Source: an uncultured Alphaproteobacteria bacterium (lineage in GTDB: Bacteria; Pseudomonadota; Alphaproteobacteria; Sphingomonadales; Sphingomonadaceae). Taken from it: a DNA stretch of 64,000 bases. Numbering within the stretch: the stretch's first letter is position 1; every line of letters begins with the position of its first letter. This document shows positions 1,788 to 41,066 of this stretch, one piece after another. The stretch spans positions 1 through 64,000 of the forward strand of contig CAIZNH010000035.1 of NCBI GenBank assembly GCA_903934325.1, in the 5' to 3' direction. The notes beneath the pieces are model-generated. The model was not told the DNA's origin and did no database searches. It saw only the letters and a program-made list of their open reading frames with translations. A program made the translations under genes and the position numbers.

Positions 1788-2807
1788 TTGAGCCTCGAAT
1801 TTCGTCATATTGCCCACGGCTATGGTCAGGTCCGGGCGCTGGAGGACATCAGCTTCCACGCGCCGGCAGGAGAGATCACCTGCCTGCTTGGCGCGTCGGG
1901 TTGCGGGAAGTCAACTCTGCTTGGCCTCGCGGCGGGGCTGCTCACGGTGCAGCAGGGCGAGATATTGCTGAACGGCACAGTGCTGGCCGATGCCCGTCAC
2001 AGCCCTCCGCCCGAAGCGCGCCCCGTGGGGCTGGTGTTTCAGGACGGCGCGCTGTTTCCGCATATGACGATTGCACAGAATATCGCCTTCGGCCTGCCCA
2101 AGGCTCGCGCTGGCGAGGCCGAGGGCTGGCTCGCGCAGGTCGGCCTTGCGGGGCTGGGCGCGCGCTATCCGCACCAGCTTTCGGGCGGGCAGCAACAGCG
2201 CGCCGCGCTCGCCCGGGCGATGGCGCCGGGGCCGCAGGTGCTCCTGATGGACGAGCCCTTCGCCAGCGTCGACATCGTGCTGCGCCGCCGCTTGCGCCGT
2301 GATTGCCGCATCATCCTGCGCGAACGCGGGGCGACCACGGTGCTCGTCACCCATGATCCGGCCGAGGCGCTCGATATTGCCGACCGGATCGCGGTGATGG
2401 AGGCGGGACGGATCGTCCAGTTTGCAACGCCCAGCGAGCTTCACGATGCCCCTGCCAGCGCGGCAGTGGGCGCAATGTTCGGCGGGGCGCAGGTCGTCTC
2501 CGGCGCGCGCGGGGAGGGCGGCTTTATGACGGCTTTCGGGCTGTGGAGCGCCGATTGTGCCGCTGCGGCTGTGCCGGAAGCCGCCGCCTATGATCTGCTG
2601 GTTCATGCCGATGCGCTCGATCTGGTCGAGGACCCGGAAGGGCTGCGGGTGCGCGATTGCCACGCGATTGGCCCCGCCGTGCGGGTGGTGCTGGTGGCGG
2701 CGGACGGCAGCGAGATCACCGCCGAGAGCGCCGCGCCGGTCAACCCTGCCAGCCGCTACCGCGTCACCCCGAGGAAGGGCAGCCTCAAGGTGTTTGCCCA
2801 AGGCTAG
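1788..2807 (+). CDS. fbpC: Ferric iron ABC transporter ATP-binding protein (FbpC type)
   Basis: Cytoplasmic ATPase of 339 residues that powers the adjacent permease. Visible motifs are Walker A GASGCGKST (residues 35-43), a Q-loop in VFQDGALFPHM, the signature LSGGQQQR near residue 131, Walker B VLLMDEPF near 155 and the H-loop VLVTHD. After about residue 230 there is a C-terminal regulatory domain resembling the TOBE-like domain of FbpC/PotA-type ATPases. It is divergent from the permease gene and 65 bases upstream of the binding-protein gene. In this family the C-terminal domain usually senses substrate or regulatory state; that is family knowledge, not something visible here. Confidence 0.88.
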   Translation: MSLEFRHIAHGYGQVRALEDISFHAPAGEITCLLGASGCGKSTLLGLAAGLLTVQQGEILLNGTVLADARHSPPPEARPVGLVFQDGALFPHMTIAQNIAFGLPKARAGEAEGWLAQVGLAGLGARYPHQLSGGQQQRAALARAMAPGPQVLLMDEPFASVDIVLRRRLRRDCRIILRERGATTVLVTHDPAEALDIADRIAVMEAGRIVQFATPSELHDAPASAAVGAMFGGAQVVSGARGEGGFMTAFGLWSADCAAAAVPEAAAYDLLVHADALDLVEDPEGLRVRDCHAIGPAVRVVLVAADGSEITAESAAPVNPASRYRVTPRKGSLKVFAQG

Positions 2808-39385: not shown

Positions 39386-40168
39386 TTACCCCCGCGCCAC
39401 AGTCTCCAGCAGCTCCGCCGTCACCGGATAGCCTGCATCCCCTAGGATCGTCAGCCAGGCCTTGCCGCCTTCCTCGACGATCTGCGGCATGATCGTGCGC
39501 ACCGGGATCGCCTCGGCGTGGGCGCGTGCTTCCTCGTAGCTGGCAAACAGCGCGAGGCGTTCGAGATTGCGGCGGGTGGGGAAGATCAGCTTGATCTCGC
39601 CGCGCTCCGCCGCATCTAGCGCGCCTTGCGCCGAGGTCCAGAACAGCTGCGTGTTCTCCGACTGGTCGATCGACACCTCGACTGCACCGGTGCCAAGATT
39701 GGCGAGATAGAAGCGCGTGTCATAGACGCGGGCGATGTTCTCGTTCTTGGGAAACCAGCGTGCAAAGGGCGTGATCTGCGACAGATCAAGCTGCCAGCCG
39801 AATTCGTCGAGCACCGGGGCGAGCGCACCGACCTCGGCCAGCATCGCGCGCGCAGCGGCAGCGCGGGCCGCATCGATGGCGCCGGCAAGGCCCATCGCAA
39901 GGCCCGTCTCCTCCAGCGTCTCGCGCACGGCGGCAATCTGGTGCGCGGCTTCATCGGCAGCGAGGCCGTGGGCATCGGCCGCCGCTTCGGCCAGCGCATA
40001 GTCTGCAGGGTCCACCCGTCCGCCCGGAAACACCGCCATTCCGCCCGCAAACGTCATCTCACGCGAGCGCACTGTCATCAGCACTTCGGGCGGGCCGCCT
40101 TCGGATGCATTGCGGAACAGGATGATGGTGGCGGCAGGAATTCCCTGCGGAGCGGCGGAATCGGTCAT
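39386..40168 (-). CDS. Nudix hydrolase (NUDT7/NUDT19-like)
   Basis: A 260-residue Nudix-family hydrolase. The core is FPGGRVDPADYALAEAA followed after an insertion by AAVRETLEETGLAMG, which supplies the metal-binding REXXEE. The insertion between the first Gly residues and the RE..EE helix is like the CoA- and acyl-CoA-cleaving NUDT7/NUDT19 group. The start at 40168 has an AGGTGA-type ribosome site; longer frames upstream have no family support. Substrate class is inferred. It stands alone, converging on the TonB receptor operon. Confidence 0.82.
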   Translation of the reverse strand: MTDSAAPQGIPAATIILFRNASEGGPPEVLMTVRSREMTFAGGMAVFPGGRVDPADYALAEAAADAHGLAADEAAHQIAAVRETLEETGLAMGLAGAIDAARAAAARAMLAEVGALAPVLDEFGWQLDLSQITPFARWFPKNENIARVYDTRFYLANLGTGAVEVSIDQSENTQLFWTSAQGALDAAERGEIKLIFPTRRNLERLALFASYEEARAHAEAIPVRTIMPQIVEEGGKAWLTILGDAGYPVTAELLETVARG

Positions 40169-40322
40169 CACCTGCGAGAATGACGCGGCGGCAAGGTCTT
40201 GCCAAGCGCTTTGGCCGCAGCCTGCCGCTTTGGAGAGGGGGTGTCGGGATGCTTTACAACCGGCCCGCGCCGAAGATCGCGCGATGGAGTGAAAATGCTG
40301 GATTTCAGCCATTTTTCAAGTT

Positions 40323-40338
40323 TGGCACGGGCTGTGCA
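40323..40338 (+). promoter_or_regulatory. Sigma-54 (RpoN) type -24/-12 promoter
   Basis: TGGCAC, five bases, then GTGCA: only one base away from the TGGCAC-N5-TTGCA consensus, with GG at 40324-40325 and GC at 40336-40337. No protein gene starts downstream. The expected transcript start is about 40348, and a structured region with a terminator follows within 105 bases. Confidence 0.6.
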
Positions 40339-40347
40339 TTGAATGTT

Positions 40348-40452
40348 GCGGTCCTAATGGTCTTCGAACCGAGGCGCGCCCTTCCTGGTCTCCGGGCTGC
40401 GCCTCCCCAAAACAAGAAACACCCCGCACTGGTCCTGCGGGGTGTTTTTTTG
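40348..40452 (+). ncRNA. Putative small RNA with sigma-54-type promoter
   Basis: About 105 bases from the predicted start to a strong terminator. It contains a long hairpin at 40371-40405 (GAGGCGC-GCCC paired with GGGC-T-GCGCCTC) with a pyrimidine-rich loop TTCCTGGTCTCC, then the terminator hairpin at 40418-40441. No plausible protein is encoded: the only frames are a four-codon ATG frame and an Arg-rich one running through the terminator. The pyrimidine loop could pair with purine-rich ribosome sites. Existence is inferred from promoter plus terminator. Confidence 0.5.
40418..40452 (+). terminator. Rho-independent terminator of the putative small RNA
   Basis: AACACCCCGCA pairs perfectly with TGCGGGGTGTT around a seven-base loop and is followed by a run of seven T residues. 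It is one of the strongest terminators in the window. Confidence 0.93.
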
Positions 40453-40739: not shown

Positions 40740-41066
40740 TCAAACCTTCGCAGCGCCGCTTTCGTCAAACAGCTGCTGGAGTTCGCCAGCCTCGAACATT
40801 TCCATCATGATGTCGCTGCCGCCCACGAATTCGCCCTTCACATAGAGCTGCGGGATGGTCGGCCAGTCGGAGAAGCTCTTGATGCCCTGCCGCACTTCCA
40901 TGTCCTGCAGCACATCGACGCTTTCATAGGCGACGCCGCAGTGGTCGAGGATCGCCACCGCACGGCTCGAAAAGCCGCATTGCGGGAACAGCGGGGTGCC
41001 CTTCATGAACAGCACCACGTCGTTGCTGCTGACGAGATCGGAAAGACGCGCGTTGATATCGGACAT
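40740..41066 (-). CDS. grxD: Monothiol glutaredoxin (Grx4 type)
   Basis: A 108-residue glutaredoxin with the monothiol CGFS active site ([10 protein letters not shown], about residue 30), and [19 protein letters not shown] near 70-87 for glutathione binding. Grx4 proteins carry a [2Fe-2S] cluster with glutathione and pair with BolA proteins in iron-sulfur trafficking and iron signalling. The bolA gene lies 39 bases upstream on the same strand, in line with that partnership. Confidence 0.96.

Follow-up and report, generated by a model that had tools for sequence, protein, structure and literature searches.

The interval at positions 40323 to 40452 of the window (the whole 64,000-nucleotide stretch of DNA analyzed, contig C35 of a 2.83-Mb genome) raises the question of whether it encodes a small RNA made from a sigma-54 promoter and, if so, which activator drives that promoter and what the RNA acts on. 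A sequence-only reading had proposed such an RNA. That core proposal has held up: promoter, both hairpins, seeds, and position are kept in 52 loci, the genome encodes RpoN (TIGR02395, 409.7 bits; cutoff, 277), and the interval very probably encodes a sigma-54 small RNA conserved across Erythrobacter-type bacteria. With rather less confidence, we conclude that it is probably the gene of a trans-acting small RNA of the PrsK-PrsR (PEP-CTERM/exosortase/exopolysaccharide) regulon, predicted to block ribosome-binding sites.

The predicted RNA lies on the plus strand between two genes of the minus strand, i.e., a NUDIX hydrolase gene upstream (39386 to 40168; PF00293) and grxD, encoding a Grx4-type glutaredoxin, downstream (40740 to 41066; TIGR00365, 152.7 bits). 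Both genes adjoin the RNA in all 52 loci, each within about 1.5 kb.

At 40323 to 40338, TGGCACGGGCTGTGCA differs from TGGCAC-N5-TTGCA by a single mismatch (TGGCAC-N5-GTGCA), in agreement with the initial description of an RpoN consensus matched at all but one position. Taken alone, this match proves nothing because 1.37 occurrences of the motif are expected by chance per window, against the 1 found; what raises it above chance is its conservation across homologs. The complete −24/−12 element (TTTGGCACGGGCTGTGCAT, 40321 to 40339, plus strand) has the form TGGCAC-N6-TGC in 49 of the 52 homologs, the exceptions being L006, L019, and L057. An independent test was afforded by a covariance model of the RNA (R1) from which the promoter was absent: among the 29 new loci, 28 carried TGGCAC-N6-TGC upstream and the last, L057, had a variant of it. 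When a collection of named genomes was scanned for promoter plus seed, 64 stretches were retrieved, by their titles mostly from Erythrobacter, Porphyrobacter, Qipengyuania, Altererythrobacter, and their neighbors, with at least 9 of the 64 from unrelated organisms by title and probably due to chance.

With its start placed 12 nt (±2) after the −12 element, the predicted RNA would be about 103 nt long (40349 to 40451, plus strand). Its minimum-energy fold reaches −47.6 kcal/mol versus −32.6 for shuffled sequences (z = −4.2; 0/200 shuffles equally low) and contains a first stem-loop at 40371 to 40405 (GAGGCGCGCCC/GGGCUGCGCCUC), in which the 12-nt loop UUCCUGGUCUCC (40382 to 40393) is unpaired, and a second hairpin at 40417 to 40447 that overlaps a run of seven T (40445 to 40451). 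The fold thus bears out the hairpin with a pyrimidine-rich loop noticed at the outset, and the size and place then given for the terminator (11 base pairs, about 105 bases downstream) were roughly right. The latter is a Rho-independent terminator (40417 to 40451) with a CUGGUCC loop and a U-tract; a terminator scan reported its inverted repeat (12 pairs) for the minus strand only.

A 231-base query matched 28 of 61 genomes, all of the same genus. Twenty-three of the fetched loci cover the RNA and the remainder match the upstream element alone; L023, L027 to L032, L002, and L003, which are of the latter kind, were excluded from the alignment of the RNA. Several secondary matches to the query fell outside the locus set, one of which (G020:C3:145129) extends into the RNA. 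The 23 same-genus copies could be aligned over the entire RNA, with a similar fold in which 15 of the 26 pairs show two-sided changes. Model R1 then detected the RNA in 85/298 family genomes at an E value of ≤0.001, its 29 best new loci comprising 6 from the same genus and 23 from other genera. The covariance search in related genomes recommended in the sequence-only reading thereby brought the set to 52 homologs with a common fold. In the alignment of these 52 sequences, 93.7% of the cells are paired and 25/26 pairs show two-sided changes (10/11 in the first stem-loop and 15/15 in the terminator), figures favored by the fitting of the alignment to the covariance model. The covariation score was 0.581; shuffles gave 0.181 ± 0.010, and slid pairings did not exceed 0.118. 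An intermediate model, R2, was not used, 7 of its 59 alignment rows being antisense or partial terminator matches; R3, made from the 52 clean rows, and whose pair counts likewise lean towards the structure of the model, finds 98/298 family genomes at an E value of ≤0.001 and 64 at ≤1e-6. No Rfam 15 family exceeded its gathering threshold at the RNA (best subthreshold match, 25.4 versus 55 bits), and two tRNAs were the sole matches over threshold in the window.

The motif UGGUC recurs in the single-stranded parts of the predicted structure, namely the 5′ tail UGGUCUUCGA (seed 1, 40358 to 40367; GGTCTTC in 42/52 homologs), CUGGUCUCC in the loop of the first hairpin (seed 2), and the CUGGUCC loop of the terminator (a possible seed 3). 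GGUC occurs 2.5 times per RNA versus 0.59 in shuffled sequence, and in the GGUC core of seed 2 the GGU is invariant and the C at least 90% conserved among the 23 same-genus copies. Pairing through the hairpin loop, as first suggested, is plausible, but the single-stranded 5′ UGGUCUUCGA is at least equally conserved. The complement of the loop, GGAGACC, resembles a Shine-Dalgarno sequence, and we moderately favor a mode of action in which the RNA pairs with ribosome-binding sites. In one locus, L041, tandem seed units, three exact (GGTCTTCGATA) and one degenerate, lie between promoter and hairpin (L041:1468-1525); the sigma-54 element is more distant from the hairpin there than in the other loci owing to the intervening repeats of the first seed. 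As read from the sequence, this is a seed amplification in one genome.

Repeated seeds could also mean that the RNA is a decoy, to which an RNA-binding protein or a further RNA binds via the GGUC copies, with no mRNA pairing. Protein-titrating RNAs carry repeated motifs, and both the GGUC excess over shuffled sequence and the tandem units of L041 are as a decoy would have them. However, we know of no GGUC-binding protein, GGUC is unlike the GGA sites in CsrA/RsmA RNAs, and mRNA-targeting RNAs may carry repeated pairing seeds too. A decoy function is hence improbable, and pairing with ribosome-binding sites is the reading retained here.

Upstream of the promoter, the sequence TGTCGG-N5-TTTACA was found in 52/52 homologs (36 exact, 9 with one mismatch, and 7 with two). 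In the window, this predicted activator box is TGTCGGGATGCTTTACA (40242 to 40258, plus strand), 62 nt before the sigma-54 element; the spacer measures 61 to 63 nt in all 52 homologs (range searched, 56 to 68), and shuffled upstream regions gave the box at ≤1 mismatch in 1/1040 cases. According to the accessible part of the study by Haft et al. (2006; PMC1569441), 99 of 167 proteobacterial PEP-CTERM genes are preceded by a 17-nt motif that ends in TTTACA, at a mean distance of 62.8 nt (SD, 10.6; 32 to 92 nt) from a sigma-54 site; the same text names PrsR as the likely activator and calls the stimulus of its partner PrsK obscure. An RpoN-dependent PEP-CTERM gene, pepA, is reported in the accessible part of PMC9850573. 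The 52 loci have the 17-nt box ending in TTTACA and the spacer by which the PrsR regulon is recognized in the portion of PMC1569441 available, the TGTCGG half of the box being defined from the 52 loci alone. On this basis, PrsR is likely, with good confidence, to be the activator of the RNA promoter. The RNA had been imagined as responding to nitrogen or envelope signals. The first of these is probably not the signal, the box and its spacing being of the published PrsR type, and the second comes nearer; nitrogen (NtrC) control loses ground only because the box of another activator is present.

Both partners are encoded in the genome, PrsK (TIGR02916, 405 bits; cutoff, 300) and PrsR (TIGR02915, 664 bits with a stop codon read through; cutoff, 502.6), next to a TPR protein that matches PrsT only weakly (71 bits; cutoff, 312). 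The stop is an in-frame TAG in prsR of this assembly (L133, around 2304 to 2306, minus strand; G000:C6), at what we take to be the Walker A motif. No in-frame stop interrupts prsR in the matches listed for four further genomes of the genus, and the TAG may mean that the switch was lost in this strain or be a sequencing error. Among 16 proteins scanned from the loci of prsR and of two boxes, none was an exosortase. Across the family, PrsR scores over the cutoff in 251/298 genomes, made up of 62/64 genomes in which the RNA hit is strong (E ≤ 1e-6) and 189/234 in which it is not (P = 0.0008 by Fisher's test, relatedness ignored). The two strong-hit genomes without PrsR have a completeness of 67% (G210) and 70% (G234); 189 of the 251 PrsR genomes have no strong RNA match.

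The combined pattern of box, spacer, and TGGCAC occurs in 103/298 family genomes and its reversed control in none, and within the present genome the exact box, the spacer, and TGGCAC coincide only at the RNA locus. Thirty pattern loci were fetched, 21 of which have grxD within reach. Two of the 30 lead into PEP-CTERM protein genes (L182 and L183) and, judged by eye, two into secreted-looking proteins (L189 and L190); the other 26, also by eye, show the RNA or a diverged GC-rich hairpin. Strongly diverged GC-rich hairpins were seen by eye behind the PrsR box and promoter in L173, L179 to L181, L191 to L193, and L197, and the RNA family may be wider than the covariance model finds.

The same sigma-54 small RNA would have a different physiological role if activated by PspF in the phage-shock (membrane stress) response. 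This was our first reading, suggested by 39 bases ending in the −24 element that resemble (87%) the promoter of pspA in the same genome (L002:1501-1539) and by 30 bases, also ending in −24, that resemble (90%) the promoter of its PspC-containing operon (L003:1501-1530). The RNA also lies 9 to 16 kb from pspF in 14/14 genomes compared, and the word TGCCAAG stands upstream in 46/52 RNA loci, with a similar word in 17/20 psp promoters. Comparison of the upstream regions across genomes demoted it: psp-type upstream words (chosen by eye) are found in 1/52 RNA loci versus 15/20 psp promoters, and the PrsR box has the opposite distribution, present in 52/52 RNA loci and 0/20 psp promoters, in which its best match has at least 4 mismatches. 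The distance of TGCCAAG is moreover variable, and the word may belong to the NUDIX gene. Co-occurrence of pspF is uninformative because a TIGR02974 match exists in all 298 genomes (274 over the cutoff). Control by PspF is therefore unlikely, marginally more so than a decoy function, although PspF may have a part given the proximity of pspF and the TGCCAAG word; PrsR remains the activator proposed here.

Some further observations concern this upstream DNA. TGCCAAG is located around 40198 to 40205 in the window, at a variable distance from the RNA promoter among loci, and may be part of the promoter of the NUDIX gene. The stretch ending in −24 that is common to the two psp-type promoters and the RNA promoter is possibly a site for an architectural protein; a simple pattern for this pre-−24 element fitted only 6 of the 23 genus loci. 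The L003 locus (L003:1501-2119; G000:C23:54114) comprises a sigma-54 promoter with psp-like upstream DNA followed by two 37-amino-acid membrane-type open reading frames and a 71-amino-acid PspC-domain protein, and from its gene content is another psp-like operon, distinct from pspA.

It is very improbable that the interval yields a short coding transcript or is a remnant leader or terminator of the neighboring genes: an ATG at 40357 does open a 71-codon frame, but the codon there is ATG in 23, GTG in 12, another in 7, and unplaced in 10 of the 52 homologs, and the frame from seed 1 to the end of the stem is spread 8/17/17 in the 42/52 scored, so that neither start codon nor frame is conserved (the interval had been credited with no credible protein), while the structure is conserved and the neighboring genes are on the opposite strand.

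As to targets, the pattern GGAGACCAG placed before ATG gave 64 matches in 21 genomes of the genus versus 24 for the reversed pattern, a weak excess over a control that is itself weak because GGAG before ATG is common. When the 64 sites were inspected by eye, the Flp pilin was the sole family recurring across genomes (G003 and G017). Eight Flp genes, named by a common motif, were taken from stretches of these two genomes and of the present one, in which an Flp gene had come up by chance, PF04964 being confirmed for the gene of the present genome and one of G003; the candidate pairing sites in Flp leaders are CGAAGACCA/GGAGACCA. Four of the eight have CGAAGACC, the complement of seed 1, followed a few bases on by AGGAGAC, before the AUG: two in G003 and one in G017 with the full CGAAGACCA, and one in the present genome with GGGTACCGAAGACCGAAACCAGGAGACTAGACATG. 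The two-site gene of G017 is a paralog and neighbor of the gene matched by the pattern search, which has the loop site only; the other three have neither site. CGAAGACC lay outside the pattern search, while the Flp genes of G003 and G017 were found through the loop complement, and the loop half is accordingly not independent.

By contiguous pairing with the two seeds, the top two places among the 518 (G003) and the 506 (G017) leaders of the fetched stretches go to Flp genes. In the present genome, 6 of 8008 start-codon leaders, the Flp leader included, score equally high in the 305,596 bases covered (about a tenth of the genome). Flp leaders did not stand out by duplex energy: that of the present genome ranks 239th of 8008, and the energy model likewise has psp leaders pairing with the RNA. 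In the present genome, the loop match of the Flp leader spans only 7 bases and is off-center from the GGUC core, and Flp paralogs and species share ancestry. The order of the two Flp sites precludes collinear pairing of one RNA copy through its two perfect seeds; either two copies would have to bind or the sites would be used singly. The Flp pilin mRNA is a possible but doubtful target; our estimate, already low, was lowered slightly because the pattern-matched gene of G017 is without the seed 1 site and the loop match in the present genome is weaker.

From the conserved fold, promoter, box, spacing, and synteny, we infer transcription, PrsR binding, pairing, and repression, in the following order. 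PrsK would phosphorylate PrsR, which would bind at 40242 to 40258 and open the RpoN polymerase at 40321 to 40339, giving an RNA of about 103 nt that ends at 40451. The UGGUC seeds in its 5′ tail, hairpin loop, and terminator loop may then pair with ribosome-binding sites containing AGACC and block translation. The best present candidate target would be the Flp (Tad-pilus) pilin mRNA, with CGAAGACC and AGGAGAC in leaders of three genomes, and the outcome would be a lowering of pili when matrix/PEP-CTERM genes are on. The more ambitious proposal that in Erythrobacter-type bacteria a main PrsR output is the small RNA rather than a protein, switching from Flp pili to matrix via two sites in the pilin mRNA, we hold to be rather unlikely; it too lost a little ground because of the same gap in G017 and the weaker loop match in the present genome. 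If the PrsR assignment is true, a regulon whose described members are protein genes would gain a post-transcriptional arm. Being small and discrete, an RNA with a PrsR box would also make a simple reporter for PrsK-PrsR, and the Sphingomonadales gain a conserved small RNA family that can be searched for with a covariance model.

Sigma-54 small RNAs with response-regulator activators include Qrr (LuxO), GlmY (GlrR), and CrcZ (CbrB), and the present RNA resembles these in being small and intergenic, with a −24/−12 promoter and a predicted two-component enhancer-binding activator. It differs from them in the activator predicted, PrsR, in lineage, and in reaching no Rfam threshold. GlmY also figures in PMC7073468. 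The likeness to the PrsR/PEP-CTERM regulon, as far as the available text of PMC1569441 goes, extends to the 17-nt box ending in TTTACA, the spacer of about 62 nt, and the sigma-54 element, but the sites published there stand before protein genes, whereas the predicted product here is an RNA. The sigma-54 promoter and the local sequence resemblance in the same genome are shared with the PspF regulon, unlike the psp upstream words, which are missing at 51/52 RNA loci. In the available part of PMC5869019, GsrN is presented as a stress small RNA of Caulobacter and relatives that pairs with mRNA through an exposed C-rich loop, is under sigma-T, and lies near the general stress locus in most relatives, with no apparent gsrN-like gene in Erythrobacter litoralis. 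The present RNA is likewise alphaproteobacterial with an exposed C-rich loop, but as compared with that account of GsrN, its conserved promoter is of the sigma-54 type and its neighbors within 1.5 kb are the NUDIX gene and grxD. No paper on this RNA was found among the matches listed, judged by titles and the starts of abstracts, in a search with most subscription journals outside its scope. We regard it as a sigma-54 small RNA of a known kind that would represent a new sequence family with an unusual activator.

Exact copies of the PrsR box number three in the present genome, i.e., at the RNA locus, near an epsB-type glycosyltransferase gene, and on C23. The second (L141:1501-1517) lies just upstream of the glycosyltransferase gene (TIGR03013, 497 bits), several kilobases away from prsR. 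An exact box stands just upstream of the same epsB-type gene in three genomes (L141:1501-1517, L298:15499, and L299:12900), in G019 and G238 within the prs region. No recognizable sigma-54 element was seen at these three epsB-side boxes, which perhaps reflect another mode of PrsR action. The third exact box (L142:1501-1517; G000:C23:85977), behind which there is no TGGCAC element, stands at the 5′ end of an open reading frame that is weakly similar (43.5 bits; cutoff, 100) to SciP, an inhibitor of CtrA.
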